In this document: one piece after another, positions 12,729 through 41,731 of the stretch
Layout of the letters: every line of letters begins with the position of its first letter
Position numbering within the stretch: the first letter of the stretch is position 1
Source of the DNA: Mesodorylaimus sp. YZB2_4
Lineage: Eukaryota; Nematoda; Enoplea; Dorylaimida; Dorylaimidae
Direction of reading: 5' to 3'
NCBI GenBank assembly: GCA_030248295.1
Contig: JASANH010001043.1
Span: 1-64,000 of the forward strand
Length of the DNA stretch: 64,000 nucleotides
Notes under the pieces: model-generated
Databases searched by the model: none
The model's input: the letters and a program-made list of their open reading frames with translations, nothing else
What the model was told of the DNA's origin: nothing
Translations under genes and position numbers: made by a program

Positions 12729-15416
12729 GTATTCTCAAACATATGATCCAGAAAGCTGCGGGCAAAATGAGAAAAGAGGATCACTTTCATTACACCATTC
12801 AAGCCACGGGTCTGAAAAATCCCATAGGCATAAGCCACGTCCAGGCTAGCGATGAGGCGTTGGAGAATTCGTTTACCTATATCGCGAAAGTCCTACAATC
12901 GGTTGACGAAATGCGTTTAGACAATCAACTGATCATCACTGTCACCAGAACCAAATTGCCTGAAGAAGGTAAAGGTAGACCAAAATGCGGCGGCGTTCGA
13001 GCCTGACGAATTCCTAACATCCAGAAATGGTTGAAAGCGAAGCGGTGCATTATTTCTGTGGGTCGAGACGATGATATGTGCGGCTTCAAAGCCATTGCTA
13101 TAGGAAAAGCTGTGGCCGACAACGTAAATGAGAATATTAGACTACGCGCGAAATGGATTCGCAGTCGTACTGAGGACATCGCTAACGCTGTAGAGATGGA
13201 CGTACGCGGCGGTCTGGGACTGGATGGCGTCCAGAAAATTCAAAACGTTCTCGTCGACTATCAGATAGTGGTTTATTCTATAGAAGACACAATGGGTACT
13301 GTCAACGTTGTTTTCCAAAGACCGCCTAGTAGGAAGCGCATATTTCTTCTACTTATCGATGGTCATCACGATGTGGTCACATCGGTGAAGGCGCTATATG
13401 GGCGAGATTACTTCTGCGAAGCTTGCTTGGTTTCTTATGATCACTCGCATCGATGCGCCCTCTTGTGTCCGTTTTGTCAGGCGCGGGGCTGTCAGAATTT
13501 GAGCAAGCACAGAACCTTGTTCGACGAAGAGTGTCAGCAGTGCGGCATCGACTTCAGAACGGCCGCTTGCGAATCGGCTTATACAAAAGAACAGTGTGAT
13601 CGATTTGGTAAGTGTCAGACGTGCTATTTGACGTGGCCCAAAAACCGTCTCGACCCTCCCAGTCGTCACCATTGCTCCGAGCGATATTGTCGTACGTGCA
13701 AGCGTTGGCAGCCGCGTTTCGTCGAACATCAGTGCTATATCAAGTCGGGAACCAACATTGATGAAGACAAAGAAAAAGAAGAGAAACAAGGAGACAGTGA
13801 AGAGTCTGGAATTTCAGCCAAACAGCCTTCCAGAAGTACCAGCGTCGAATCGAAGAGTAAGTTTGAAACCTATTATTGCGATTTTGAAACGGCTGTGCGA
13901 TGCAGTGATCGTCACTTCGCTTCCATTCTTTGTATCATTCAACGAGCCGATGGTGTGGAGTCGATTTTCGAAGGACCCAATTCGCCGGAACACTTTTTGG
14001 ACTATATTTCGGATTTAGACTATGAAACCACTATATATATATACTATAAGAATAGTGGTTGCCCATTATGCCCAGGTAAGTTTTTATGAACCTGTTTTTA
14101 GCAGTCCTAATGTAGCGAAATTGATATTTTGGGGATTCGATATTTTCTGTTTCTTGAAGGCCATCTACGAAAAGCGCCAACCTGTCGAAATAATTTCTAA
14201 AGGGCAAAAGATAATCCATCTGACGATGGTCAATGCTCGGCTGAGATTTATCGATTCGATTTCCTTTCTGAGCATGCCATTGGCTAGTTTCAGTTCGGCC
14301 TTCGATATTCCTGAAATCAAGGAGGGCTTCTTTCCGTATGCTCTGCTAAAATGCGTACCCGACGAGGATCCTACAGGCATCGTCGACCGACTAAAAAGGG
14401 CCATCCCCTTCCCTGATGAGAAATCGTTCGACGTCGACTCTATGGCACTGAAAAGAAAGGCCGAATATAAAAAGTTTTTCAGCCAGGCTGTTCTACATTT
14501 CGCTGAGAATCCCTACGTGCCATGGACCGAACTGGTGCAGTACTGCCAATCCGACGTCACTTTACTACGCGAGGGGTGCGAACGGTTCTGCAAACTCTTC
14601 ACTGAACAAATGGAACTGGATCCGTTCGACAAGGCCATCACATTAATGTCGGCGAATTTCCAATCATTCTGCGCCAATTTTCTACCCAAAGACAAAATTG
14701 CTGTGATCGGAGACAATCGTCTGTTCAAGGGCAAGTATAGTCGGATGGGTTTGGTTTGGTTGCAAATGTTGGCCGATCGTAATGGTATTCACATTCTAGA
14801 CGGCGGCAACGGCGGCGAGAAAAAGATAGGAATCTACACAAACGACGGATTCTCCGATCAAACCTAGATATGGAGCTATGGCCGCGATCAAGCATGGAAA
14901 TCGAAGGGTACTTGCTACTAATTCCACAGTTGTCCCTTTCACGGATGTCCCACTTGCTTCAAAGATAGAAACGAGATCTTTCTTGGCAAAACCATGCAGA
15001 CTCGATACAGTCGAACCATTCGTCGGGAACGGTACTTACAAAGTCAGAACTACAACGTCATTGTTGCGTGGGCGTGCCAATTTGACCCTATCATGAAGAG
15101 TCAACCGAATCTGCTGGAGAATGCTCGTCGTATGGGTGCCTTACATCCCAGACTTTTGCCGCGTCAAGGCTACTACGGAGGTAAATATCTATATCTTACA
15201 GTTTTCTAGGACGAGTTTATGCTTGACTGCTATATCAATTTTAGGAAGAGTGGAGGCATTTGAATTATATCACGAATGCGCCGAAGATCAATCAATATTC
15301 TACTACGACTATAATGGTAAGACCCTTTTGTTTTCTAAACTAAGTATTCTGCTAATAGCACACCTTTTTCAGGCTTATATCCATACACTATGCTGATTAC
15401 AGAGTTTTACAATGAG
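12729..15416 (+). pseudogene. polB: Polinton/Maverick-type DNA polymerase B, intron-containing, 3'-truncated
   Basis: Protein-primed family B polymerase (DNA_pol_B_2). The N-terminal part has VLQSVDEMRLDNQLIITV, then CGFKAIAIGKAV and a cysteine-rich region (YFCEACLVSYDHSHRC onward, 13410-13740). Exonuclease motif I is YYCDFETA (about 13875). Exo II is split by a frameshift (VVAHYA then GFDIFCFLK, about 14060-14150). RFIDSISFLSMPLASFSSAF and the exo III region YCQSDVTLL follow, then FHGCPTCF. Two introns (15181-15244 and 15317-15372) join in phase around the palm motif YYDYNGLYPYTM. There are in-frame stops at 13004, 14865 and shortly after. Nothing of the palm after motif A was found; the gene stops at a donor at 15417. 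This copy is dead. Confidence 0.85.
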
Positions 15417-22150: not shown

Positions 22151-22234
22151 TGTGCTTACTGTAGGCGCTAAGACAGGCACAGTCTCCTCTCCAATGTTCT
22201 TCGTTTGAGCGGCAGTTGGTGGTGATGCATTTTC

Positions 22235-22372
22235 CGAATTCGGACATGGTCAACTAGGCGATGGTCAACTCGGTGATGGTCAACTAGGCGACTGCGCACT
22301 AGGCGCCAGGTCAACTAGGCGATGGTCAACTAGGCGACTGCGCACTAGGCGACGGACGAGTAGGCGATATTA
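22235..22372. repeat. Minisatellite GGTCAACTAGGCGAT, probable MULE terminal array
   Basis: At least eight variants of GGTCAACTAGGCGAT / GACTGCGCACTAGGCG in tandem. They stop about 80 bases before the MULE transposase start, so they are probably the left terminal repeat and promoter region of that element. No matching inverted copy was seen downstream. Confidence 0.5.
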
Positions 22373-22452
22373 CCATGTTCAGCAGTCTTTTTGTTGTTTG
22401 TTGTCTGTTGTGCGGCTGCGCCACTCAGTTTAAATAAACAGTTTGGAGCAAG

Positions 22453-23970: not shown

Positions 23971-24950
23971 TCACAATCGTGCCAGCATGGCTTTAAGAAC
24001 TGCTCTGCGCTCTTGCATTAACGCGGCGGCTTCTTTCTCGCCTTTTGAGGTGGGGCTGGGCGCGAGAGGAGTGCCAAAAATCTGATCGATTTCCCTTGTC
24101 ACTTCTTGCACAAATGTAGCTTCGCAGGGGGACTTACTAATCGTGTCGACGTAGCTTTGACGAATAGCTGTTTTTGCTAACGGAATATATTCGTCCCAAT
24201 TTTCGTCGCCTTGGCGTATATGCAACGCTATGCAATTTGCAATTTTCTGGTTCAGTCGCTCGACTTGTCCATTGCCTTGTGGATGCCATGAAGTGGTGAA
24301 CTTCTTCGTGATGCGTAATTCTTTGCAGACGTGTTGTAGCATCGCGCTGTGATATTCAGGACCATTATCGGATAGTAGCGTATGGGCTAGTGGATGGTGC
24401 ATGTAGACGTTGTCCAAAAATACTTCGGCCTCTGTTCGGGCACGGATATCAGGTACCGGAATCAGGTAGCAGTACTTCTTCAGCAGATCGATGGAATTCA
24501 CCAAATAACGATTGCCTTTGCGTGTGACTTTGAGAGGACCCATGGAATCGACTGCCTATACCGTAAATTGCTCTTCTGGAACAGGCATTTCAGTCAAGGG
24601 AGGTGTTCGATTGACTCGATCTGGTTTCCTCAGCTTGCATGGAAGACACGCTGCGCACCATCTTCGAATATCGGTTTCCATCGTATCCCATTGATACAGA
24701 GGGCGTAAGATTTGTATCATCCGGTTGGAGCCTGGGTGATCAGATACCCGATCTGGCGAATTGTGATGAGCAATAAATATCAATTTGCGATATGTCGTTG
24801 GTACAACTATGCATCGGGATTTTCCAACTGGTTTGCGTTCACGTCGACAGTACAGAAGAACACCTTCGCTTGCCAGTTCGTACTTGTACAGGATCCGCCT
24901 GAGAGCTGTTCGAGCATCGACATTTTCTTGGAAAATGCCGGATAATGCTT
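23971..24950 (-). pseudogene. Ty3/Gypsy integrase, downstream part of a dUTPase-containing pol
   Basis: The zinc-binding region (HHNSPDRVSDHPGSNRM, then CAACLPCK at about 24650) is followed by the catalytic core: AVDSMGPL, LLSDNGPEYHSAML and NGQVERLNQKI supply the D, D, E residues. There is one TAG stop at about 24556 between zinc finger and core, and a TAA at 24949 just upstream of the zinc finger; otherwise one frame connects to the dUTPase region. The copy ends at 23971 and the rest of the element is absent. Confidence 0.85.
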
Positions 24951-25685
24951 AAATAACATCCCATAGTGCAGATTGTTCACGCTGGGCTGTACGCAACTGA
25001 GCACGGGTTGGCAATAGGTCTTGCATCGCGGGGTAGTCGACTGGACGTGGGGCGTATTGACCATAATCATCGCTTTCTAGGCTGGAAGCGGAAATAGTTG
25101 CGACTGAAGTCAGTTCGTGTGATAGAATAGTTCTCGATGCATCTGGTTCCGATGATAGCACGATCGCTTTGAATTGCTGTTTGAACTCGTCCCACGGATC
25201 GGTAGGCAATGTGGATGCAGCATGCAAAACCACAGGCGAGATGGACTGCTCTGATTCTGGATTGATGGCCACGTTCGCTTGTATGCTGGCACCACTTTCG
25301 AGGGGCACCTCGACTACCTCGCCACTTTCGATGCCGGGGGCGGGGTTGATGTAAAGCGTGGTGCGCTGCACTCGATTGATCTCGGCCGTATCGGACTCGT
25401 CATAGTCTTGCATCGCAGCGCTCAACCGGGGCACTGCAACTGCTTCTGGCGTGAAATTTCGTTCAAAAATAAGCTGCGCGATTCGATCTTCGCGTCGGAC
25501 TAGAAAGGGCGATGGACCGTGATTAAAGAGTAAAACAGCAATGTTACCGCGATAGTCCGGATCAATGACACCAGCACCGACTGCGATCATTCATTGTGGC
25601 TGCCAGATTCGATCTGGGCGCAATTCTCGCATAGCAGCCGGGCGAGATTTAGATTTGAATTGCCGTTTTGCACAATGCTGCTCTG
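24951..25685 (-). pseudogene. dUTPase domain and linker in a Gypsy pol
   Basis: dUTPases hydrolyse dUTP so that uracil is not built into new DNA. Here YARIAPRSNLAA (about 25630) is dUTPase motif 2. After a one-base frame change comes [20 protein letters not shown] (motif 3) and [12 protein letters not shown] (motif 4). The glycine-rich motif 5 was not seen. About 150 residues of acidic linker follow ([14 protein letters not shown] and so on) before the integrase zinc finger. The pol order dUTPase-integrase resembles non-primate lentiviruses. The domain is truncated upstream at about 25685, where recognisable sequence ends. Confidence 0.85.
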
Positions 25686-25689
25686 TTTG

Positions 25690-26329
25690 GTGGAATTAAA
25701 TAAGCGTATGCGCTGGTCAGATTATAGCTAGCTGCATCGGCCGTGTTTCGCCTCGGTGCCTAGGAGGTCTAACTCTCGTGCTGTGCGCGCACAGTAGCAG
25801 GTAGTGTTCATAGCAGGAAGTGTTCAAGCCGCGGCTAGGCGAATCATTTTGTGTTCTGTATCCCTTTATCCTCGAGCGGTTCATTACTGATATAATAAAC
25901 CATGAGCATGACCATAGAGTTGGAAGGGGGAAAAGATTGTCAAGAATATCTCTCGAGGTTCAGGCATTTAAGAATAAGCCTTATCACTTTACTCGCAGCG
26001 CTCCAGCTTTAGCATAGTCAGGTTGCTCGTATGAAACAGCACAGCTGATTTTCGTAGCCTGTCTGAACATTAGCATGTAACGACGTTCCTTCTCTAAGTA
26101 TGGGCTCCCCAGCTCTTATACGTCCTAGACTGGGTATGGGGACTCGACCTAGGTGAGGCCTAATAAGACTTGCTGAAAAAGAATGGTGCCAACATCGTGC
26201 AGACTCTTTTTAATTCTCATCTCAAGATATGACCCGACTGCTCTCGTCGGCTGCGCGATTCACTCTAACGTTACCCAGAGCGAGGCAACCGCCTTCCACT
26301 CTTCAACTCCATCAACACTCGCTCACTAG
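25690..26329. other. No gene recognised
   Basis: Unassigned sequence between the truncated dUTPase-Gypsy fragment and the 5' LTR of the 15.4-kb element. No repeats or coding pattern identified. The last four bases are CTAG, the target-site copy of the element. Confidence 0.4.
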
Positions 26330-26700
26330 TGTAATAGGCGTGGATACACTTGTCTGCACCTATCAGTGAACTGGTCTGCCTCTCCTAGGTCGGGGCCAGG
26401 CACGAGGCCGAGAGTGATATTAAGGCCGAGTGACTGGTTTGGTTTGCAGGAATTGGGTGGTGACCGGTATTGAGTTCCTGATCTGAATTGCACTCTGTGC
26501 GATTCGGGCTCAGGACCATCAGAACCTCCTTCAGGATCGACACGTGCGGCCGCCCTCTGAGTTGTGAGCCTAAACGGCCCTTGTGTGTGATTGACGAATA
26601 AACGATACACGAGGCGTCGTGGGCTACGTGGGTTCGTTCCTGTGGCTAAGGCCGTCCACTGGCTTGTCCTAGTTCGTCCTGGGATAGGCTAAGGATTTCA
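26330..26700 (+). repeat. 5' LTR of the 15.4-kb element
   Basis: 371 bp, TG...CA ends. Nearly identical to the 3' LTR; the main difference is 13 bp present only in the 3' copy near its start, plus scattered substitutions. Confidence 0.93.
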
Positions 26701-26701
26701 C

Positions 26702-26716
26702 TGGCGTCGCGAACAC
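26702..26716 (+). other. Primer binding site candidate
   Basis: TGGCGTCGCGAACAC begins one base after the LTR end and starts with TGG, the complement of a tRNA CCA end. The tRNA was not identified. Confidence 0.55.
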
Positions 26717-27123
26717 CCACGTTTGGGGTAGCTTACCAACACAATTCGAGAGTGGTCAATTGTTTCGATCGAGGTAAGGTGATTGAATACGAAGATTTGA
26801 TCGCTAGCCCGTCGACGTTGGACGCGCACGTGCAATCTGAACTATAGCCTTCGGAAAGACACGGGCTGGTTTTATTCTCGATCGATTGGTATTCCTCGAG
26901 TGCGATTTTGTTTCTATTTAGATTGGCAACGCGCCATCCACGTGGCAGGTTGGTGGTACGACTTGGTAAGTGACGTATTTTTACCAATTAGCGTGTCTGT
27001 TGGGTAGACACGCGTACGACAGTGGAATGCATCCATCGAAACAAGGTAAGGGTGGAATGTATCCGCCTACGCATTTGTATTATACGCGCCGACGCACTAT
27101 CTGCTCGAGGCAATGGACGAGTG

Positions 27124-29902
27124 ATGGATGAGCACCGATTGCAGCCGGCTGGCACCAAGTTGCCGGTACAGAAGACGGCGACACAACAAGGAACGAGTGA
27201 TAATCGAACTACCGGGGTGGACCATCTGAAGCGTCTGGGTTTAGACAAAACGAGCGACGCGGTGCCATCAATCATTTGGGGGGGGGGGGCGCTTCTGGTG
27301 AGCACCCACCTACCATTTCGGCAGTGGCTGGTTCGGTTGTGGCCACAGTGGTCTCAGCTATTTCGGCAGCGGCAACAACAGTAGCCGTAAGTACTGCGTC
27401 ATGGGTTCGGGGTCATATAAGTGGAGCTCTCTCTGGTCAGCTTGGGGATGGAGTAGCACTTCGCCGGGCTCAGTCCTTGCCCGGGGTTGTCGAGCAGAAG
27501 GCATTAGCCCGCCTGAACACAGTACCAACGATGATTTTCGAACAGTCGGGTAGCAAAACGACTACTGTAGACGACATCACAGAACCAAGTGGCGCAACTT
27601 CAGCGACAGCCACAGGAAAGAATTCGGAAAAGCAGGGTGACAATTTCCCTAGGTCTGAGCTACTGACGTGCGAAGATATCTTGCAGTGTCGTAGCATCAA
27701 CATCATTCAACGCTGGATCGAGCGCCTGGGCTGGTCTGAAGTATGGCCACGAACTAGCTGGACGAAATGGAACAAAAGCGATTTGCTCGACATTTTGCGG
27801 CGCGAGTTGTATTATTATGCGATCGCGTATTATTGGGTGACCAATGGTGGCCCACCAACGAACCCGTTCAAGAAGAGCGACTCGGTTATCCCTACAGTAG
27901 AGTGGCTAAAGGATGCTGCTCAGGAATATTTCGGCAAGAAAGGTAACTTCATTATTAACCAATGTTACTTCTATTTACCATTGCAGCTGTCGTATGTCGT
28001 GGGTCCGTTTATCTGGGACCCCATTCAGCAATGGTGGACCGACTATGCATATCGTTTAACTTTCGTCACACCTGCTGGGACTAGTGATACCACTGGCCCA
28101 GGCGGTAATCGTCGCAGCATGGCGAACTTGCAAGTATCGCCTGCCATGGATCAAATTTCCAGTTCAACGAGGCTGGGTGCAAACGGCACACTGGCCCCGC
28201 AGAATTTGCAGCTGGCTGGTCATAACATACTGGGCGGACTGCGGGATGAACTATCAAATATGGTACGAGACGTAGCTGATGTCCGAAAGGAACTAGCAGC
28301 AAATCAAGACGAAAAGGTGGATGGTTCTGTCTGAGATGGCAGTGATCTCTCGGGCGATCAGGATACACCACCATCACCATTCACTCGCACGCGCAGAGAC
28401 CTGGAAGAGGCGGAAGTCAATGCATCAATACGGAATATGGGACAAAGATTTAGGAAGCTGATGGAACTGCAGAAGTCGAAGGAGCAAGAGAAACGACCAG
28501 TGCCTATCTATCCTAGTCTCACAGACTGGGATAATTGGTTCCTTGATTTCTTCACGCATGAGGAACGGGGGGGGGCAGTGCTTCGGAAACGACCTGACGA
28601 TCTGGAAGGATATCAAGAAGACATGATCAGGCACTACCACCGCACGCGAGAAGCAATAAAACAGCATCGATTGCGATTGGTTTCTGAAAGTAAGGTCCAG
28701 GTTAATCCACAAACTGGCTTTCCAGAGTACCCTGTCACCACGTTCCCATTTCCAATTCCACCTATTCTACAGGATGCGAAAACGCTGGGCAGATCGAGCC
28801 AACAGGCTACCACAGTAGCAACGACTATGAATAGGGCTCCGATTCCAATCGGTCAGACATATTCAAACGCATCATCACAGCAGCAGCCGACATTATTATA
28901 CGACGCGAGTGGAAATCCGTATTGGGTTAACATGGCATCGACTATAGCTGGTAGCCGACTGGCGGCATCTGCGAGTCCAACGGGATACTCGATGGCCATG
29001 CACCCAGGAATTCCACCAATTATTCCCCAAGTTCAACGCGCGAACAGTGGTCACCAGCATAGAAGTGGTCAACCGGGTGACCCTCCAGGCGATGACGATG
29101 CATCCGGTGGATCGGACAATAGCGACGATAGAAGACGACGAAGGCAGAGGGGTGGACGCCTTCCGCCCTGAGGGTCTCGTCAGCAAGAACGACAGCCGAC
29201 TTTGCCGTTACCTTCAATGCAGCGCCTCGATCCTTTTAGGGGCAGCATGGACGGCGAATTTTGAGTCTGGCTGCGACAATTCGAAAGTGCACTCGCTGCA
29301 GCAGATGCAGCCACGAAATTGACATATTTTGGTAGTTGCATGAAAGAGGCAGCAGCTACTACATGGGCTTTGCTTTCTAGCAACTAGAAATCGACGTACA
29401 AACTGGCGAAGAAAGCGATGGCTGACGTCTACGATCGACAATTATTTGCGAAGCAGCGTAGAATGCAATTTCAGCGCTGCGTGCAGAATGCGAACGAGCC
29501 AGTAATCAAGTATCTAGAACGACTGCGTGACTTTGGCACACAGTTGTATCCGGATTCAGATACCGAGCGTCTGAAAGAAGAACTTATGTTTCAGTTCACG
29601 ATGGGTTTGGTGCAACCCTTGAAGAAGCGAATGCTGCAACAGATAGTGGTGGAACAGCCTCCGCCGAATCTGGAAAGACGAAGGCATCGGGCTTGCGAGC
29701 TGGAGACTTTTATGAAATTAGATGCAGTCGATAAAGCGGCGCCGTCAAAAGCGATGATGGCCAGTGCCAACACTGGCAATGCATCGAGTACTGACGAAGA
29801 ATTTTTTGATGCGGATGATGGGTCGGATACGACGAATGATGGCGGTGGTGGCGATGCGCCTTCTGATAAATTTTCAAAGTCAAGATTCAACAACATGGGT
29901 TG
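27124..29902 (+). pseudogene. gag: Gag of the 15.4-kb element
   Basis: Starts at MDEHRLQPAGTKL (27124). The frame must change at a run of 12 Gs (27278-27289) to enter the long frame used to 29902. An N-terminal region of about 350 residues has no family I recognise (aromatic-rich RELYYYAIAYYWVTNGG). A proline/glutamine-rich linker follows, then a retrotransposon gag-type capsid region (AAATTWALL, CVQNANEPVIKYLERLRDFG, LMFQFTMGLVQPLKKRML). Stops within the frame are TGA at 28332 and 29169, another TGA near 29262 and TAG near 29385. The capsid end is acidic (DEEFFDADDGSDTTNDGGGG). Confidence 0.75.
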
Positions 29903-30471
29903 ATTCAACCGACAACGGGGTGACCCGTTTGGTAAGTACGGTTATGCTCGTTACAATCATACCACATTTACAACCTGAATTCGATGGGAATGGCGAAATG
30001 CGTTCCCGTGGCCAATGGCGCGGACGATACAGTATGAAATATCATTCGAGTGATGAAGACCGAAGATCGAAATATCAACAGCGGCAGAAGCCCCGCCAAG
30101 ATCAGCGGCAATACGATCGCACTGAACGACGCGACCGATCGTCATCATTCAGCGACTCCCGACAGAATTCGCCATGGCGTCAACGTGGCGGACGCACTGA
30201 CAGTCAACGATCTTCGAATACTGGAGACAACACGGGTAAAGCGACATGCTTCAACTGTAAAGGAACAGGTCACTATGCACGAGACTGTTCATCTCCATGT
30301 GGTCAGTGTGGCGATAGGTCGCATTCCTTGATGCAGTGCAGTGCAAGGATAAGAGATGTGAGTCTTTATCGTTGGACGAAGACGCTGTCATCAGAGGAAC
30401 AGCAGGAAGAAACTACTGGACAAACGTCTGGTACATTTCCAAAAAACGCGAAGAAGGCGGTGCACCATTAG
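29890..30471 (+). pseudogene. Nucleocapsid: basic region and CCHC zinc knuckles
   Basis: In the next frame after the capsid, an arginine/glutamine/serine-rich stretch is followed by CFNCKGTGHYARDC, a perfect CCHC knuckle, and CGQCGDRSHSLMQC, a second one. This is the RNA-binding end of gag. A frame change near 29890 connects it to the capsid part. Confidence 0.85.
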
Positions 30472-30473
30472 AT

Positions 30474-30905
30474 GTGCCGCCTATGAATTATTTATTCCTG
30501 TCACCCGAGAACGTGCCCACAGTCAGACTTCCGTTCGCAGAAGCCGGGTATGGTCCTCACGACGTGTGCATGGCGAGCGACGGACGTTCAGTCAGGGTAA
30601 ACAGGTTGCCCTTGCCATTAATCGATATTTCGTTCAGTCGGTTCAAGACTCGTGCATATGTCGATAGCTGTGCAAGTATTACCCTGATTTCAGAAGAAGC
30701 GTTGGAAGCGATGAAGAAGAAAGAGTACCATCGGTCCAAGCTGGAGCCACCAGATATCGACCATTGTGTCGATGGGGATGTTAATGCCGATTTTAGGCAT
30801 TGCTCGTTTGGATGTGACTGTTGGGGATAAAACTGCAACTAATATTCCATTTTACGTTTTAGAGTATGGAAAGTATTCTGTGCTCTAGGGTGAAGACTTC
30901 AATAT
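30474..30905 (+). pseudogene. Aspartic protease of the 15.4-kb element
   Basis: AYVDSCASITLISEEAL (about 30655) is a retropepsin active-site region with cysteine in place of the glycine of DSG. After a frame change near 30780, PILGIARLDVTVGDKTATN and YVLEYGKYSVL represent the second half of the fold. The altered active site and frameshift suggest decay. The interval to 31110 is disrupted by stops. Confidence 0.75.
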
Positions 30906-31109
30906 GGGACTACATCGATGGCAATATGATACGAAACGAGAGCGAGTTGGTACACGGCTGGTGCATTGACGGGCGTCGATGTGCCAGTACATCGTACACC
31001 GCTTAATTATTTCAAAGCTTCCGCTAGAATAGCTAACACTATTCGGGTAGGAAAGCGACGACATGAGATCGTCACAGCCACAGCGCCTCGATTATAATGG
31101 GGCCGCGAC

Positions 31110-33010
31110 GTGCTCTTCGATCCAATTCCTTCTGAGCCTCATTTGATGATGCCAAGGACGATCATACGACCTGATAAAAGGACTGGACATTTTCTGGTCC
31201 CTTTAGTGAATCTGGCACGAACGGCTCAGCTCCTGCCGCGAAGCATGAATATGGGTTTTCTCTCTGAGCCGGAACCGTTTCGAGTGACGTTTCGTTACAA
31301 TCGTAGAACGGATCCAGGGAGAGCCGGACTTCAATGGGAAATGCCGAATCCGTTTCTGTTTGATAAGAAGGCTCCCCCATTCTTGCAGATGGAGCCAGTA
31401 ATTTCCGATCAACCAGTCGATCTGGTGCCATGCACATTCACAGCGATTAGGCCCGAAGTCGAATTTGTGGAACACGAACGCTTGTGGTTGCACACTATGT
31501 CTCGGAGTGATGGGTCTCCGAAACCCAAGTGGCCACATCGGGTTCCAATTGATCGCAAAGATCAGAAACGCCAGAAGAAATTACTGGGAAAGCTCAAGCT
31601 CGGTAACGGAAACCTTTCGGAGCAAGACACGCAATGGATATGTCAAGTAGTCGCAGAGAATTCGGACGTCTTTGCTCTACAGAAAGAAGAAATCGATGGT
31701 ACCCAATTGGCACAACATCGTATTGAAACAGGAGATGCGAAACCAGTCATGGCTCGCCCACGTAGGCTCGCAGAGAGTCAGAAACCCATTATTCAAGAAG
31801 AAGTGGGGAAATTGTTACGCTTGGGTTGGATTCGACCATCACATTCTCCATGGGCCTCACCTATCGTATTGGTTCGCAAGAAGACTGGCGATTGGAGGAT
31901 GTGTGTCGATTTCCGTGCCATTAACAAGGTAACAAAGAAGGACGCCCATACGCTGCCCAACATCCATTAAATGTTGGGTGCACTACGCGGTTCGAAATAT
32001 TTCTCAGTATTCGACATGACCTCGGGTTATAGTCAAATACCATTGGATCCAGAAACAGCTGAAAAGACAGCATTCGTCTGTCCTTTTGGTTTTTGGGAGA
32101 ACGTCAACATGCCTTTTGGACTCTGCAATGCACCAGCAGAGTTCCAAAGGTGCATTGGAAATGGCATTGTTTGGATTGCTATGGATTTACACCCTATGCT
32201 ATCTGGACGATATCATTGTATTCGGTAAGAACTTGGATGAACATATCGAGCATCTGAGTACAGTCTTTGGTCGACTGCGCGAAGCTCATCTCATGCTCGA
32301 ACCATCGAAGTGTGCTATTGCGATGGACCAGGTCGAGTACCTGGGACATTGCATTAGTGCCGAAGGTGTTTCTATCACAGATGACAAACGCGATAAGATT
32401 CGAAATTTTCCAATCCCGACCAACACGGATCAGCTCCATAAGTTCATGGGGTTGGCCAGCTATTATCGCTCATTCGTCGAGGGATTTGCTCGTAGGACGA
32501 AAGCTTTGCGAGATCTCTTGAAGCGAGCTACGAAGTGGTCGTGGATGGAAACGCATCAAAAGGAATTCGAAGATTTACGAGAAGCACTGGTGACTTACCA
32601 AGTGATGCGGTACGTTGACTTCTCTCTGCCATTTAGGCTCAGCACAGATGCGAGCAATTCGCCATCGGAGCAGCACTGGAGCAGTATGATCCGAAGAAGC
32701 CAAAACATGCTTGGGCAATCGGGTTCATATCGTGTACCCTGTCACCCGCTGAACAGAATTATACGACGATTGATCGGGAGTGCTTGGCTATTTATTGGGC
32801 GATAAAGCAGTATCGACACTGACCTGTATGGACGTCCATTCGAGGTGTACACCGATCACAAGCCTCTCCTGTATTGGTACAAGGAGAAGGACTTGGAGGG
32901 ACGTCGCGGTAAGTGGCTGATGCAGTTGCAGGATTATACTTTTAGTATAACACACGCGAAAGGATGCGACAACGGTGCCGCAGACTGTCTGTCTCGACTG
33001 CCAGCGGCTG
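31110..33010 (+). pseudogene. Reverse transcriptase and RNase H of the 15.4-kb element
   Basis: The RT has QEEVGKLLRLGWIRPSHSPWA, WRMCVDFRAINKVTKKDAH, then a TAA stop at 31968, then FSVFDMTSGYSQIPLDP, MPFGLCNAPAEFQR and, after a frame change near 32150, CYLDDIIVFGKNL as the active site. The connection domain has HCISAEGVSITDDK and FMGLASYYRSFVEGFARR. RNase H has STDASN, then shifts frame near 32655 and 32820, and ends with YTDHKPLLYWYKEKDL and GAADCLSRLP. This is a standard Ty3/Gypsy order. Confidence 0.9.
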
Positions 33011-33640
33011 ATGCAACATTATTTGCAGCCTTGTCGCCAAGTCATCACTGCAAGCTTTGTGGCCCTTCTGCATTGATCGCGCTTCTACCGCAAGCATTTG
33101 CAAATGGGCACGATTCGGGTATTTCAGAGGACAGCGATGCATCCGACGAGGACAAAGATTCTGTTCCTGTCCAGATGGCCAGCATACCACAAATTTGTGT
33201 AATGGAGGCGACTGATTCGGAAAGCGAAGGTGAAGCTCCAAGTGCGTGCCTCAAACGGGAAGTCGACAATGTACCATTGGCACTGATACGAGAAGTTCTC
33301 CCAGTGCCTCTACCAATGAACTGGCTAGACAACTTTGTTGCTCTGGCCTCAGCGAAGCCCTTAGATTCGATATCCGAGGGCAACAGTGAATGTGAGTACG
33401 ACAGTATGTTCGATGACTGTATCTCCGCTATTGCGGATGCCGAGCAGGTTCCTGGCGCCTCTGTCGGGACAAATCAAGGGGATCTGGATGAGGACGCCAC
33501 CCTGGAATTTGATGTTCAGACGGACGCGAATATGTCTGAGGATTCTGAATCTGAATCGGATTTGGAGTTGCAGGATGAGTTGGATCTGTCGGTACAGGTC
33601 AAGGCAGACAAGCTGGAGATTGAAGTGGCTAAGTTAGCTG
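33011..33640 (+). CDS. Acidic spacer of about 210 residues between RNase H and integrase
   Basis: An uninterrupted stretch rich in Asp, Glu and Ser (SEDSDASDEDKDSV, EATDSESEGEAP, MSEDSESESDLELQDELDL). It also has a CKLCGPS pair near its start. In most Gypsy elements RNase H and integrase are joined by a short linker, so this is an insertion. It stays open while most other domains here are broken. It occupies the same pol position as the dUTPase of the neighbouring Gypsy fragment, but no dUTPase motifs are visible in it. Function unknown. Confidence 0.6.
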
Positions 33641-34810
33641 CAGACACGTTTCCTGATGCGCCTTCCCGGGACGTCTTTAAGAAGATGCAGAGGGACGAAG
33701 ACGAGTTGGGCTGCATCATTGCATTCTTGCAGGGTGATTACAGTCAGTCTCCCAGAATCGCGAATTTAGCAAAAAGCTACTTATTGGACGAGGATGGTAT
33801 TTTAATGCACCGATGGCATCACGAGAGCAAGTTGATCGAAGGCAATTTCGTTCACGATTGGGTAGTGGTTCCGCCCGAGTTGCGACGATTCATTTTCGAT
33901 GCAGCGCTCAGGGATGCGGACCACCCGGGTTTCGATCGACTGTTCTCAGCGCTACGCATCAAGTATTTTTGGTCTACAATGCGAAGGGATCTCCGGGCTT
34001 GGTGTGCCGAGTGCAACACTTGCGCTCGTTTCAAGGCACCTCACCGGTACGAAGGACCACCTCTGGAGATCATCAAACGAACAGCGCCTTTTGATACGAT
34101 TGCCATAGACGTGCAAGGTCCATTTCCAACTTCGAATCATGGGAACAGGTTCGTGGTGGTGATCATGTGCATATTCACCAAGTGGGCTGGAGCGTATGCA
34201 GTGCCTGACCAGAAGGCCGCGCGCATTGCTCGCCTGCTTGTTGATGGCTGGATCACGCGACACGGGTGTCCTCGGGTGTTGCTCAGTGACTGTTGCTCAT
34301 TTCTTGTCGAAGCTCGTTTTACGACTCTGCAAGGAATTAGGGGTGAAGGAAGTTTCGACCACCCCATATCACCCGCAGTGCAATGGTAATGTAGAGAATC
34401 TGAACAAACTTATTGGATTCTCCATGGCGTGCTATGTGCATCCTGATCAGAAAGATTGGGACAATCGCTTGCAGCTGATAATGATGCATTATCGGCATAC
34501 ACCGCATACGACAACAGGGGTATCGCCAAACCTCATGTGGCATGGACACGAACCGCCGACGGCACTGGATACATTGCTTTCGCAGCCTCGTACCGATGAG
34601 GTACAGGGCATGGAGTATGTAGATCTGTTACGGATCCGCATGGCAAGTATCGATGCGGAAGTACGGCAGAACATTGAACTCAATCAATTTCGTCAGAAAC
34701 TACAGTATGACGAGACCGCTCATCCTCTGTCATTGTAAGTTGGGGATTGGGTTCGAAAACCAAACTATCATTTCAAACCTGGCCTTTCAAGGAAACTTAG
34801 TTTTCATTGG
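33641..34810 (+). pseudogene. Integrase zinc finger and catalytic core of the 15.4-kb element
   Basis: The HHCC region is DADHPGFDRLFSALRIKYFW with WCAECNTCARFK (33920-34035). The core has FDTIAIDVQGPF (first D), VLLSDCCSF (second D) and, after a one-base frame change near 34330, YHPQCNGNVENLNKL, which supplies the glutamate. MHYRHTPHTTTGVSPNLMWHG is the typical end of the core. A TAA at 34736 interrupts the frame just before the GPY/F-type segment WLGPYEVVKILGESG. Confidence 0.9.
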
Positions 34811-35528
34811 TTGGGCCCATACGAAGTGGTGAAGATACTGGGTGAGTCTGGTGTCTTGATCCAAAATTTGCAAGATCCAAGGAAGCCGATCGAACGCTGG
34901 CACCTGCAGCATCTGTTAAAGACGACGGAACGCCTGGAACAGACTGCAGTGGTGGATGAGGCATCTGCTGGAGCAGTACGAGCACGAAGAACGAGCGAGG
35001 GCGCTTTCGAGCAGGTGGAGGGTAGTGCTGAAAATGCTAACGACGCACCTTCTCTGTTGCAGGATCAGCCTACCTCGGTGGTGGATCCACAGTCAAATGT
35101 TCCGCCTGCCTCAACTCCCTTCCAGATTGGTCAGTACGTCTGGGCAAAGGTCATGGGCTTCCCTTGGTGGCCTAAGCGCATCACGGGTCTGGGTGCCCAA
35201 GGAGGCTCTGATGAACCTGACGTATCGTTGATCAAGAAATCGCATGAGCTCCCCACATCCCGCATCAACTTAAAAACCAGTCTATCGGGTTTACTCTCTC
35301 AATGATGATTGGAAGTATGCGTACTTGCGGGAATCGGCGATTCAGGATTTCGTTACTCACCAGCAGTTCTTCCAGACGAAGCTACGGATGAAGAACGACA
35401 TGCCGAAGAAGCACAAAAGTAAAGTAGGCAAGCTGAGGGAAGCTATTCACCAGGCCGTTTGCGCGGTTGAGGATATGCGTCTGGCTGGTACTGTACGTTG
35501 CTGGACGCAAGTTTGGATGATGGAATAG
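34811..35528 (+). pseudogene. Integrase C-terminus with PWWP domain
   Basis: After the GPY/F segment (MGPYEVVKILGESGVLIQNL) and about 80 residues of linker, IGQYVWAKVMGFPWWPKRI (35124-35180) is a clear PWWP domain start; PWWP domains bind methylated H3K36 nucleosomes and DNA. After a one-base frame change between about 35235 and 35285, the second half is readable: YRVYSLNDDWKYAYLRESAI, then DFVTHQQFF, then a basic MPKKHKSKVGKLREAIHQAV helix, ending at 35528. This matches the beta-barrel plus helix layout of PWWP domains. It sits where chromoviruses have a chromodomain, so a role in choosing integration sites is a reasonable inference. Confidence 0.88.
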
Positions 35529-36017
35529 CGCCAGTCCAATTTACAGCGTTGTACCATTGCCCTTTCGCACCATGTGCGTATGGGGGCAACATGGGGGGTT
35601 TTTAGGATGTTTAACTCTCACGCGCCTGAGCATCTTCGTCTCGAGGGTCTGGGGTCTTGCCTGCTTATGTCAGGATAGCCTGGGCTGATGCGCCACGTGA
35701 GTGTGTTCTCGATGGTGGTCAGCCGAGACCACTTATTTTTCGTTGGTCATTTTCGACGTGTGGTTTTTTGTTTCTGTTTGGGTTTTTTTGTGGACTAGCT
35801 AGTTCTTCAAGTGCCTTGTTAACGGTTTTCTAAGGTAATCATCCCAGCCGGCTCTCAGCTGTAGCTTTAGCTCCGGGTCCGGTTTCGGGTTATTTGGGTT
35901 TTTTTTGTTCTCTTTACTTATTCCTTGGCAACGAATCTCGGTTAGGCGTTTGCTCAAGGAGTGGTCAGTATTTCGAATGGTGCTTATAAGTGCCTTACTT
36001 GAACTCAGGTAGGAAGT
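35529..36017 (+). other. Spacer between pol and the second reading frame
   Basis: About 490 bases without coding pattern. It contains T-rich runs (35760-35790, 35895-35915), which could serve as a splice acceptor or internal promoter for the downstream frame; no decisive signal was found. Confidence 0.4.
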
Positions 36018-39000
36018 TTGGCTTTCTGTGAATTGATCTCGTGTAATTTCGGGGACATGGGTGATTCGATGGAATTATCGAATATCCCAGTGATGACGGT
36101 GGCTATGACTGCCGCAACAGAAACAATTTCAGTTTCTGTTTCTGGGAGTGCCTCGCAGGTGACTCCCCCTATTCTAGGCGATTATACTATTGGGTCGGCG
36201 AGCGATCCGTATGGATCGCTGCCTATGGACATGGCCGTGGGTTTGCGCGACGTAGATCAGAAGATTCGCGATACGGCTCAACGGGTCGCGAAGCTGGATA
36301 GACAAGTGTCTTCTGGCTCCGTTTGCGCACCACTTCGCATTCCGGATACGGCTCGTATGGGTTTGGCGAGGGATGCCACAGCACAGAAGTTGGTGGCGTT
36401 TGGTTCGAGAGTGGTAAGTATGGCTGGCGTGCCTAGGGACTGACAGCAGCCCCTGGTCTTGGACCAAACCATCCGGGCCGGGCTGTTTAACGCAATGGCA
36501 GTACCAGGCATGCCAAACCAGCTGGCATTGTTCCAGTTGCACGCGTATTATCGCCAACATTTGAAGCGACACCCTTTGCTCGATGGCACACGATCGACCG
36601 TGGAGGTTATCACTGGCACCACATCGTTGGAAGTCATTTATGACACGTTCAGTAAGTTGGTTAACTTTGGGGATTCTGGTGGTGCGATCGCAGTGTTCAC
36701 AGTTGGTCCCGAGTGGGGTTCAGCTAGGTCGTCGTTCGCTGGAGCGGGAATACCGCTCGATCTCCTCGAAGATTTTGATGCTATTATGCCGAAGGATTGT
36801 ATGCCCATACTGGCGAGGCCCGAAGAATGTGATGGATCGGCGGAGATGGAACAGCTGGTGGACAGCCTCACCAGGTTGTTTGCCAGCTCGGATTCCCAGG
36901 CAATGAAATGCAGCACAGTGGACGAGCCTTATTCGAATGCCTGTTTGCCGAATCGGGTGGTAAGTGTACCCTTGTCGTGTGAGAAGTTCTTGTCTCTCTT
37001 TCAGACCAGTGAGATCTCGTTAGCGCATTACATCGTTTTGGTCAATAAATTGGGATACGCAGTTGTGATCGATACTAGGAGTCAGGGTGGCTCCCATTCG
37101 TTGTATCAGGTGCCCTTGATGGGGGTGGCTGTGCGATCAATCGCTGGGTAAGGTGTTTTGGTCCAAGTCGTGCGTCCAACGGGTAGAACAGACGTTGTGC
37201 ATGCGGTCTGGTATGGTAAGAAACACCTCATGTTTGGATGCTGTGTGGACACTGGGACTTGGACCAACTGTTTCGTCGCTGGATGAGGCCTTCCAGCGAA
37301 CTTACAGCTGGCTGAGCTGTTTCGGCTGCCTTCGCCTGGCAGGGATCCTTCGACCCTGGCTGGAGCGATTTCGGGCATATTTCCTTTTCCGTTTCAGAAA
37401 GCAGGATTGGTGAGCTTGTTCATTCCCACTGATCCGTTGGCCATGCCCACAGACCCTACCACGTTGAGGGGCTGTCTGGTGTTAGGCGCGTTGGCTGTGA
37501 TGGATCTGGCCATCGCGACCAGCGCGTTGCACGACTTGTGGTATTTGCATCCCGACGCCCTGCCGTTTTGGTTCATGGGTGCGGTACGGGTGGGGGTTTC
37601 TGTCGCCGACATGCCCCCTTCCTTGGTGGAGGTGGGTAGGTCGGTTGGCCCGTTACCCACCTGTTCGCAGTGCGGATCGCTGGGTTGTGTCTATGGTATG
37701 GTGGCGGCCGAATTTGATCGATACGACCTCTCGAAGGTCTCGGATGAACAAGCCGATTTGGTGCGCGATCTGATCGTCACCCGATGGGAGCTGCGGGGAC
37801 ATGAGGACGCGCGGGCCTTTGATGCTGGATGCCGTGGGGTGGCCCAGAACATTCCCTGTCTGGGTCCTCGCCCATTGGAATCGCCTACGTTACCATCACT
37901 GTTGCAGGGTGCAGCACAGCATGAGCCCGGCACAGCGTTCTTCATTCCCTCTGCGATCCTGGGTAGTATTCGTGAGAACCTGGAGATTCGCCCTCAGCGT
38001 GCTGATGCGTCTCCGGCGGACACACAACCACCACCACCTGGGTCTATTAAGGTTCGGCAGCGGTGGGAGAAATATTTGGCCTATTTGCAAGCATGCGGGT
38101 TTGCGGTCGACAAGATCCCACAGTCGCAATTCGCCTGCTGGGAAATGGCAAGGGCTGAGGCATATGGCCAGTTTGACGATACCACATCTTTGGTCACGGG
38201 TCGTCCATTGACGGCTTCCGCTGAACTGTACAGTAAGGTGAATATGTTGCCTTCGTCCTTGAGCATGGGTACCCTGTCTCTCCAGGATGCTATTTTACTG
38301 ACGCAGCCGGGGTTTCCGGCGGCTGAGTTGGCGCAGATTGTCTCCGCAGGGTTCCCTGCGGAGGGCGTGCCAATTTCTCAGCGTCGTGTCGCTGTTCCCG
38401 TTTACGAATTACAAACTGCCGGCCTGTCGTTTCATAAGTATCCTATGGCCCCTGAATCATTAGCATGGTGGGCATGCGACACATGGAAGTTGCAATGTTG
38501 CCAGGTTCTGACTCTTTTGCAGTCCCAGGAGCCCTAGAATCAGTCGTCTCGAATGCTTCAGGCCGTGGCGTGTGAACTCTTGGCTTTGCACGCCTGGACT
38601 ATGGGGCAGTTGATGGACACTGATCGGGGAAATCGCTATCGGTGCCCGCCGCACGAGTGGTTGGCGGCTTCATTGGAAGTTGTAGCGTTTGTTGCGAACT
38701 CGTTTTATCGAGTTACTGAGTCCGAATACCGTTCGTTGCATGGTCGGGGTGCGGATGGCCGATCGTGGGCATTTTGGCCCTCCCCGTTGGGCACGTGTGC
38801 GGTTCTGGTTCCGATTTCGAAGTTGGATTCCTCTCGGTTACTGCGGAAACATCGGGATTTGCTCCCCACCAGGTATGATGACCAACATTTGGGTTTATCA
38901 GTTGGGGTTTCTTTGCCAGGGTCGTCAACACCGTATTACCAGTTAGTGTCGACCAAGAATGCACATTTGCTGTCCTTCGGGCTGATCTTCCTCAAATACG

Positions 39001-40409
39001 TTTCGCATGCGTACACGGTCAAGTATGGCGACCTGTTTTCTTCGTCATTCATGGTCGATCCGGCTCGACCTGGCACGCCGATTGCTATTGCGGCGTCGTT
39101 GCGGTTGCCCCAATGGTTTCTAGAGATTTTGCATGCGCCGGGTACAACCCCTGTTTTTGATCTTTTTCAGAAAGTACTGGATACCGAGTTCTGTGTTCCC
39201 ACTGGTTACCCGCAGCTACCGCCAGCGTCGGCGACTGCGTCCTCAGCACCTTTAGCGCAAATTCTCGATGCAGGACGAGACTCAGATCCCGACACGCGCA
39301 AGCATCGCCGGAGGCAGCGACAGGCGTCTCGTTCTCGCTCACGACATTCGTACCCTCGACGTGATGATTATCGGAAACCACCCCCCCCCCCTGGGGTTGG
39401 TGCGGCTGGTTCGGGTTCCGGGGCCGGATATGTTTCATCTGGTTCCAGGACCTTCTATTCTAGTTCTGGTCAGCAACAATCTTCGACTTCAACCTCCACA
39501 GGGTCTGGACAGCAGTCTGGGTCCCAGCGGTCGGGGTTGGCCCTGGTGGGGGAGGAGATGTCCCCTGTGGCTCCCCCTCGCGTGGGTGGTTCCTCTGGTT
39601 CTGCCTTCGCTCCCGACGAATGTGCCAGGCCAGAGTTCGATTTTTCCGGATATTGTGGAATGGACGGGTTTAGATGCGGCTACTTCGTGCGATTTGGGTT
39701 CGGAGTCAAGTGCCGCTTTGTCCGATATTTTTCTTCATTGCCTGGTGGTGGGTAAGCCTGCTCCCATTTCGTCTCAAGCGCCTTTTTCGGGGCGCCCGCC
39801 AAGGTGGAGCCAAGGTGAGTTCCTTTTGATTCCTATCTCCCCGCTGGTGTTGACTTCCCCAACGTCCTTTGGGGATCTGAATTGTGTCCCTTTTGGGCCC
39901 CCGGGCGAGGTGCTTCCCCAGTGGAGTGCCCTGTATTATGTTCCGTTATGCCTACGCTCCGATTACCCCAAGTATGGGAAGGAATTGCGATTTGATTGTC
40001 CCAGCGTGGTTGGATTCCGCCACTCGGGCCATGGGCAGCTCCGCTATGTGGTGCATAAGCCCTTGCTACATTGACCGGCTTATCCCATGGTTCACCACAC
40101 GATTTTTGATTTGACTGGAGTGCCCTTAGATAGGTCGTGGTCGGTTTTGGACTGGCCTTCTCGTAGGCCGTTTCCTTCGTTTGCGGCTTGGGTGGTTAGT
40201 CGGGGGGTCATCGGTTTCAGGCTGCACGGGCGATGTGGATTTCGCGTCTCAAACGCCTGTCTACGTATCAATTGGCTATGTACTTTCTTGATGAGCGCTG
40301 GGGAGGTGTCCCCTTCAGCAATGACGTCTCGCTTGCCTCTATGGGATTCGCCCGTCCCGGTTCTGGGGCGCCACCTCGACGTCGGCAGCTGGCGCCCCCT
40401 GCATTGTAG
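36018..40409 (+). pseudogene. Second large reading frame (about 1,460 codons), unknown family
   Basis: From 36018 to about 39640 a single frame is open apart from four stops (36441 TGA, 37149 TAA, about 37284 TGA, 38535 TAG). It then continues one frame over to about 40225, with a stop at 40072, and in a third frame to AMYFLDERWGGVPFSND and a stop near 40409. The pattern of rare stops between long protein-like stretches implies one former protein. Notable parts: a CSQCGSLGC cluster (about 37660), and an Arg/Ser-rich basic tail (RKHRRRQRQASRSRSRHSYP, about 39300) followed by proline and Gly/Ser/Gln low complexity. I saw no signal peptide, membrane anchor or fusion motif, so it is not an obvious envelope protein. 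The basic tail suggests nucleic acid binding. Function unknown. Confidence 0.6.
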
Positions 40410-41329
40410 ACGGTTTCGTTGATGGGTGGGGGGACGGATGGTGGCCATTATTGGGCTCCCCCCTTCGAGTCGTTGTGGTTTCGTCTGATTCCGTCTACTA
40501 CTGTTGACTAACCTGTTTGTTTGTTTAGGGCTTAACCCTGGACCGCCTTGGTTTTAGCCCCCCAGCCGTCTGGTAATTTCGTTTGATTTCACGTATTTTT
40601 TTTGCGTATTCTCTTCTCGCTGGATCAATATTTTCCTCATAGCGAATTTTACCGCCTGGTTTGTCTTCATCTTGAACCGGGTCACAGGGTCTGGGACTTT
40701 CCTGGGCTCTGTGCCGCACACCTCGGATGTTGGTATCTGAGGCGCGCCCGACTGGACTTGGGTTCTGGTCGGGTAGGGATTCGGGGGACCTAACGGGTCC
40801 TGGGGGGTTGGTGTCTGATTCTGCCGACCCTTCTGGAGACCCTGGCCGCCGCTGGACAATTGGTGTCTGATTCTGCCCTATGCTCTGGCTGGTGGCGAGT
40901 GTCTGGACCCCCGGTGTCTGATTCCGCCAGGGGCTCTGGGCACTCGAGGGAGGTTTGGCGTGCGCTCTTTCTTTCAGCCTCCGTCGCCTGCAGTCACTGA
41001 AGCCACAACGCCTAGTGATCTTTCGTGATTGCTCAGTGATCTTGGGGTGATGGGCTGCGTTGCGTTGAGTGTTGCTGCCGTAGGCCTCCCATGTTTGCGT
41101 TCCTTGTAGACCCCTAGGGCCGTCGGAGGGTAGCCAGCCGCGCCTGCCTTGGTTCGCTTAACCCCTTTTGGTGGACTTTTTGGTCTGCCGGGTTTGGTGT
41201 TGGGATCTCCTGGTCATCCCTGATTCCCGTTGCCTTTACCTGATGGACCCAGACATTTATCGGTCTGGTGTGCCCCCTTATCTGGACGTGCCCCTCGTTT
41301 CACGGGAAGCGCGGGGTCACGCTTCTTTT
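40410..41329 (+). other. Non-coding 3' region of the 15.4-kb element
   Basis: No reading frame recognised. GGTGTCTGATTCTGCC or a near copy occurs at about 40809, 40861 and 40908, a degenerate repeat of roughly 50 bp. Confidence 0.5.
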
Positions 41330-41343
41330 AAGGAGAGAAGGAG
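41330..41343 (+). other. Polypurine tract
   Basis: AAGGAGAGAAGGAG lies directly before the 3' LTR, the expected place and composition for the plus-strand primer. Confidence 0.8.
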
Positions 41344-41727
41344 TGTAATAGGCGTGGATACACTTGTCTGCACCTATCAGTGCACTGGTTCAGGGAACTG
41401 GTCTGCCTCTCCTAGGTCAGGGCCAGGCACGAGGCCGAGAGTGATATCGAGGCCGAGTGACTGGTTTGGTTTGCAGGAATTGGGCGGTGACTGGTATTGA
41501 GTTCCTGGTCTGAATTGCACTCTGGGCAATTCAGGCTCAGGACCATCAGAACCTCCGTCAGGATCGACACGTGCGGCCGCCCTCTGAGTTGTGAGCCTAA
41601 ACGGCCCTTGTGTGTGATTGACGAATAAACGATACACGAGGCGTCGTGGGCTACGTGGGTTCATTCCTGTGGCTAAGGCCGTCCACTGGCTTGTCCTAGT
41701 TTGTCCTGGGATAGGCTAAGGATTTCA
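41344..41727 (+). repeat. 3' LTR of the 15.4-kb element
   Basis: 384 bp, same ends as the 5' LTR, with 13 extra bases near its start (around GCACTGGTTCAGG). Followed by the target-site copy CTAG. Confidence 0.93.
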
Positions 41728-41731
41728 CTAG

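Follow-up and report, generated by a model that had tools for sequence, protein, structure and literature searches.

Evidence for an integrase ending in a PWWP domain

The analysed DNA, a window of 64,000 nucleotides at the start of contig JASANH010001043.1 from the nematode Mesodorylaimus sp. YZB2_4, contains a broken Ty3/Gypsy retrotransposon whose integrase is followed by a PWWP domain. This raises the question of whether the domain belongs to the integrase and, if so, what it does there. A reading of the sequence alone had suggested that the element built a chromatin-targeting module into its own integrase. A group of Ty3/Gypsy elements in this genome possesses an integrase ending in a PWWP domain, and we consider it quite probable that this domain tethers the integration complex to nucleosomes. 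The fusion recurs in seven families of the same genome, its PWWP domain is under purifying selection, and long terminal repeats (LTRs) with 4-bp duplications delimit the element in two copies.

Both halves of the domain noted in the sequence-only reading, the GFPWWP motif and a second half with WKYAYLRESAI and a basic helix, are present after the integrase of the window copy. They are detected at 35111-35209 and 35259-35495 by a custom PWWP profile built from 14 relatives, with E-values of 2.4e-10 and 6e-10 that refer to a small search. The linker to the integrase GPY/F segment had been described as open. This holds for the first half only, because the second half lies in another frame and contains an in-frame stop. 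In a Pfam scan the open piece 34739-35305 gives a PWWP match of E 2.1e-4 and 22.2 bits, under the cut-off of 25.6 bits, since this frame covers profile positions 1-19 only. The nearest copies, L014-L016 (80-92% DNA identity), are also broken. The relatives L017-L021 (72-73% DNA identity) run from the integrase to the PWWP domain in one open frame, so that intact relatives do carry the domain.

The 145-Mb genome (1067 contigs) was searched for further copies. Matches to PF00855 with E 0.001 or better occur at at least 146 places, a lower bound obtained from 150 scored candidates of the 173 found at first look. Of the 146 places, 60 fall within open frames of 500 amino acids or more and 35 within frames of 1000 or more. 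When compared with the 150 best H2C2 matches out of 691 candidates, 50 of the 146 places are preceded on their own strand by an H2C2 match at most 3 kb away. The spacing is 922-1071 bp in 48 of these 50 pairs, and 37 pairs are in frame. We inspected 72 places, namely the 60 best-scoring, 4 more in long frames and 8 possible host genes. With integrase profiles built partly from these same loci, a Gypsy integrase is found upstream on the same strand in 68 of the 72 and in the same frame in 59. Of the four places that lack it, L036 lies at a contig edge, L082 is a broken copy, L091 was covered over a short stretch only, and L094 resembles a host gene. The joining of PWWP and integrase is not a matter of chance. 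The Fam1 copy on C48 is a young copy with an open frame of 2153 amino acids, whose LTR stretches differ by 3 mismatches in 188 positions and 3 gap columns; its repeats measure about 190 bp, with CACT read by eye on either side. Gypsy integrases with no detectable PWWP domain are present in the same genome (L095, L098-L101).

The eight candidate host PWWP genes, L087-L094, were rejected by eye as element pieces in seven cases; only L094 is host-gene-like.

Families, predicted fold and selection

The copies were sorted by eye into seven families on their PWWP signatures:

Fam1: SLVWAK..PWWPARVLPESEA
Fam2: GDxVWAKMKYHPY[LW]P and kin
Fam3, the family of the window copy: GQYVWAKV[MT]GFPWWP
Fam4: GQIVWVKVTGYPWWP
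Fam5: EFVWAKVPGHPAWP
Fam6: GSFIWAKVRGFQPAP
Fam7: WVWAKRARGQPYWP

Six representatives (L026, L028 and L044 of Fam1, L066 of Fam2, L049 of Fam3, L079 of Fam4) all exceed the Pfam cut-offs for H2C2, rve and PWWP. RNase H is found in five of them, the sixth piece being too short to reach it, and none of the six gives a Chromo match at E 0.01. Across all seven families, the D,D(35)E triad and the GPY motif are present in 11 of 11 representatives and the HHCC motif in 10. In the window copy and in L066, whose polyproteins were inspected piecewise for domain order, RVT_1, RNase H, H2C2 and rve follow each other in the Ty3/Gypsy order.

A PWWP fold is predicted for the domain. Structure models of two family members match solved PWWP folds, with a five-strand barrel and C-terminal helices, and the matches include the PWWP-DNA complexes of HRP3, Shuguo and BRPF2. 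For the PWWPs of Fam2, Fam5 and Fam6, LEDGF/HDGF/HRP-type PWWPs are among the best PDB matches. The model of L018 contains an SH3-like GPY/F segment and a low-confidence linker, and this linker between GPY/F and PWWP is probably flexible. The ratio of nonsynonymous to synonymous change (dN/dS) in the PWWP domain is 0.06-0.14 in the 5 of 12 pairs with a finite synonymous distance, which shows purifying selection. The amino acids of the domain change faster than those of the integrase core in most of the compared pairs.

Descent of the integrases

The relationships of the integrases were studied in a careful tree of 50 sequences and in a further version of 129 rows. Families 3, 4, 5, 6 and 7 form one integrase clade (bootstrap 96, SH-like approximate likelihood ratio test 92; 99/98 without Fam6); the placement of Fam6 is unsure because of its long branch. 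The integrase piece of the window groups with L018 (100/91, 141 columns) and is nested with L018 and L020. Fam1 falls within the same larger group (80/87), which includes the PWWP-less L095 and L099. Fam2 is placed elsewhere, together with the outside proteins P0001 and P0006, which are uninformative on the absence of a PWWP domain because P0001 ends inside GPY/F and P0006 soon after it.

Searches outside the genome required shared five-residue words, so that a null result elsewhere does not show absence. With an integrase-PWWP protein as query, PF00855 is found in none of the best 120 of 358 matches (7992 scored candidates). Of 195 candidates for the L026 PWWP region one matches, P0121, in which Pfam recognises PWWP and nothing else. 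Region 500-745 of L018 gives no match among 1247 candidates at E 0.001, and one scan of viral contigs revealed no relative.

Possible function of the PWWP domain

PWWP domains read nucleosomes methylated at lysine 36 of histone H3 (H3K36). Human immunodeficiency virus (HIV) integrase is steered to transcribed genes via the host protein LEDGF, which has a PWWP domain, and chromoviruses carry a chromodomain at the integrase C-terminus that is thought to tether the complex or choose sites. Because the domain described here occupies a chromodomain-like position, and because of the PWWP's role as a reader of nucleosomes and H3K36 methylation and the use that HIV makes of LEDGF, chromatin tethering is the best inference. 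We propose that the integrase is arranged as a GPY/F module, a fast-changing flexible linker and the PWWP as the last domain. During integration the PWWP would anchor the complex of integrase and complementary DNA (cDNA) on nucleosomes, and the linker would let it sit on the nucleosome while the catalytic part acts on nearby DNA. In this way the built-in domain probably helps the element to choose or keep its landing place.

Which feature of chromatin is recognised may differ between the families. Aligned with LEDGF, in which we take the aromatic cage to be M15/Y18/W21/F44, the cage positions of Fam3 are V/F/W/F, with S in place of the relatives' last F in the window copy. They are M or L / V, I or L / W / F in Fam1, V/Y/W/L in Fam4 and V/H/W/F in Fam5; Fam7 has no clear first residue, followed by Q/W/F. 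H3K36 methylation reading is likeliest in Fam3, judging by these residues: the Fam3 PWWP, with its F, W and F, would most likely read methylated H3K36 together with nucleosomal DNA, and the families with reduced cages may bind chiefly through contacts with DNA or recognise a different mark. Targeting of gene bodies through H3K36 methylation, as the sequence-only reading had put forward, is plausible. That the whole clade has a built-in LEDGF, with an integrase that itself reads H3K36 methylation and aims at transcribed gene bodies, and with shifted marks in the altered-cage families, is a possibility that we hold only tentatively. Thirty-one exon-level Wnt matches and a chromodomain open reading frame (ORF) that we take to be HP1-like mark the genome as that of an animal, and two AWS matches, presumably of the SETD2/NSD/ASH1 type, point to likely machinery for H3K36 methylation.

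Several observations weigh against tethering or against its H3K36 form. The cage is fullest in Fam3 and incomplete in most families: Fam2 is mostly M/H/L or W/F, its larger subfamily having L at the key Trp, and Fam6 is V/F/A/F, with A at that position. Because the cages are partial outside Fam3, H3K36 methylation reading is not general across the families on sequence grounds. The confidence of the structure models is moderate (predicted template modelling scores 0.63 and 0.43). The PWWP-integrase fusion is known here from one genome. A single PWWP clade is not rejected by the approximately unbiased test (p 0.16), but the PWWP label changes twice in the best tree, and one change suffices in 0% of 200 bootstrap trees. 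Around the window insertion only transposable elements and no host gene were recognised among 19 flanking ORFs, a scan that short exons would escape. Kinase genes are found on larger contigs (median rank 43, n=117) than the PWWP places as a whole (184.5, n=146). Among integrases, those with a PWWP occupy larger contigs (median rank 83.5, n=50) than those in which none was seen (323, n=100; p 4e-4), and the contigs of chromodomain elements are the smallest (476.5, n=54). Score-based lists, copy age, assembly breaks at young repeats and non-independent copies confound this comparison, which gives only a hint of an insertion preference. The sets comprised 54 of 70 chromodomain matches, after 16 presumed host genes were dropped, and 117 of 144 kinase matches, after neighbouring exons and the last entries were dropped.

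Other explanations of the domain have been considered. It might be a general clamp on nucleosomes or DNA that reads no histone mark and allows a broad choice of targets. The reduced cages of Fam1, 2, 4, 5, 6 and 7 and the PWWP-DNA complexes among the fold matches would suit such a clamp, and according to PMC2706977, unrelated chromatin tethers can replace the chromatin-binding end of LEDGF with HIV integration still supported, a result which cautions that the tether itself may matter rather than the mark. Fam3 nevertheless retains the cage-type F/W/F, and the Trp is retained in five of the seven families and in part of Fam2; we regard a pure clamp as rather unlikely. It is improbable that the PWWP acts within the element's own cycle, in intasome assembly or in contacts with the cDNA or the particle, instead of on host chromatin: PWWPs are established chromatin modules, and the low-confidence, probably flexible linker of the model separates the domain from the rest of the integrase. 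What speaks for such a role is the Tf1 integrase chromodomain, which a title cited in PMC3605345 credits with promoting the binding of cDNA and mediating the choice of target sites.

A decaying passenger without function could account for the loss of the key Trp in Fam6 and the larger Fam2 subfamily and for the faster amino acid change of the domain relative to the integrase core, but the low dN/dS and the long open frame of the young C48 copy make this very improbable. As the window copy is frame-broken, it might by itself be taken for a host PWWP gene lying beside a dead element by accident or through a separate insertion. This is refuted by relatives in which a single open frame crosses the join; in-frame joins recur in many copies and across families with near-fixed spacing, only one of the 72 inspected places is host-gene-like, and hardly any weight is left to an accident. 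The proposal made from the sequence, that a PWWP domain is built into a Gypsy integrase at the position of the chromovirus chromodomain, is supported, and selection keeps the domain.

The element in the window and its surroundings

Neither the LTRs nor the third coding region nor the further families were part of the sequence-only reading, which is borne out as to the domain. The degenerate full-length LTR element spans 26330-41727, about 15.4 kb, and consists of the following parts:

26326-26329, no strand: target-site duplication CTAG, left copy
26330-26700, + strand: 5′ LTR, TG...CA, 371 bp, direct repeat with 41344-41727
26701-26722, + strand: expected primer-binding region, by position only, directly inside the 5′ LTR
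27204-30471, + strand: gag region, several broken frames, terminal CCHC zinc knuckle (ORFs, Pfam)
31098-32805, + strand: reverse transcriptase region, broken frames (RVT_1 E 2.9e-12 in ORF 32020-32805)
32806-34738, + strand: RNase H end, integrase H2C2 zinc-binding domain, DDE core split over two frames (Pfam)
34739-35110, + strand: integrase GPY/F (SH3-like) segment and variable linker (open frame, DNA match to relatives)
35111-35209, + strand: PWWP first half (GQYVWAKVMGFPWWP), in the frame of the GPY/F segment
35259-35495, + strand: PWWP second half and C-terminal basic helix, other frame, in-frame stop
36003-40074, + strand: third coding region after pol, broken (DNA matches in relatives)
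41344-41727, + strand: 3′ LTR, 384 bp, direct repeat with the 5′ LTR
41728-41731, no strand: target-site duplication CTAG, right copy

The two LTRs differ by 12 mismatches in 371 aligned bases and by one 13-column gap near the LTR start, the sole gap, and the same CTAG stands directly outside both. LTRs and target-site duplications were checked in two copies, those of the window and of C48. The gag-pol of the window copy is split over many frames. In the gag region the Pfam scan gives zf-CCHC (E 1.6e-6) in ORF 29758-30471 and a sub-threshold Arc_C (E 0.011) in 29388-29903; 27204-28334 and 28335-29171 have no Pfam match and are called gag by position. ORF 32806-34389 matches RT_RNaseH (8.3e-7), Integrase_H2C2 (7.8e-13) and, sub-threshold, rve (0.0045). 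No Pfam match was obtained in 31098-31970 or 34163-34738. The GPY/F segment resembles that of L018 by eye.

In the third coding region, 36003-36443, 36444-37151 and the end of 39256-40074 share 34-47% amino acid identity with the DNA after pol of L017-L022 and 77-90% with L014. There is no Pfam match at E 0.01 in 36003-36443, 36444-37151 or 38538-39755, only a sub-threshold DUF6447 in 37287-38537, and the third-region piece of L020 has no PDB sequence match. The region is matched only in Fam3 relatives and L014; outside Fam3 the downstream sequence reached far enough for this check in Fam1 loci only. The C48 copy of Fam1 has its 3′ LTR within about half a kilobase after the pol stop. For a Gypsy element of this size, about 15.4 kb, a long third coding region on the same strand as pol is unusual. 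In L017, L018, L019 and L021 the match to the end of the region nearly abuts the match to its start, and these four seem to lack the middle part that L020 and L022 possess.

The window contains 81 ORFs of at least 120 amino acids, of which 19 outside the element and one inside it (40525-41157) were scanned. The matches are to reverse transcriptases, integrases, an endonuclease, a dUTPase, DNA polymerase B, DUF1759 and transposase-like pieces. At 23971-25590 on the minus strand an integrase piece lies near a dUTPase-coding piece, possibly as parts of one retroelement with its own dUTPase. At 14019-14867 on the plus strand a DNA polymerase B match (PF03175, E 1.1e-7) stands among transposon-like ORFs and is perhaps a Polinton remnant. 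At 22233-22381 short imperfect repeats (GGTCAACTAGGCGAT units) form a tandem-like array.

Comparison with known systems

Like the chromoviruses, the elements described here have a Gypsy pol with a domain of the methyl-lysine-reader type at the integrase C-terminus, beyond GPY/F; the difference is that the reader is a PWWP domain, with no Chromo match in the six representatives. In lentiviruses a PWWP likewise connects integrase to chromatin, but it resides in the separate host protein LEDGF/p75 (or HRP2), bound via the integrase-binding domain, whereas here it is encoded in pol. L103 and L104, among other places in the same genome, also have an integrase with a C-terminal chromodomain (L104: Chromo E 5e-7, rve E 5e-5, sub-threshold), of another integrase type that we take to be Polinton/Maverick-like. 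P0013, a Gypsy-type integrase from a metagenome, ends in a PHD finger (E 1.7e-11), another chromatin-reader fusion in the same position. Ginger1 DNA transposons share a Gypsy-like integrase, GPY/F and extra C-terminal domains including PHD; they differ in being DNA transposons with OTU, Ulp1 and PHD, and PWWP has 0 occurrences in the main text of PMC2836005. According to PMC3605345, chromodomain groups exist with and without a full aromatic cage, which resembles the PWWP families found here.

The sequence-only reading knew of no described Gypsy lineage with this arrangement, and no account of an element with a PWWP-bearing integrase was found among the titles and abstract openings listed from 5.39 million open-access papers, subscription papers and Repbase being outside that scope. 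Of the described arrangements met there, the chromoviruses and Ginger1 come closest. An integrase with a fused chromatin reader is known; the PWWP as that reader is apparently new. Here a second type of reader, the one that HIV borrows via LEDGF, is joined to integrase in several families of a single animal. Since the same genome also holds related integrases that lack a PWWP, as well as natural cage variants, it offers a clean test of whether the reader alone sets landing sites, and the same setting lets one ask whether euchromatic targeting can evolve repeatedly. If the integrases do contain a built-in LEDGF, they would be a naturally occurring series of integrases with changed targets, a counterpart of the chromoviruses that faces euchromatin.
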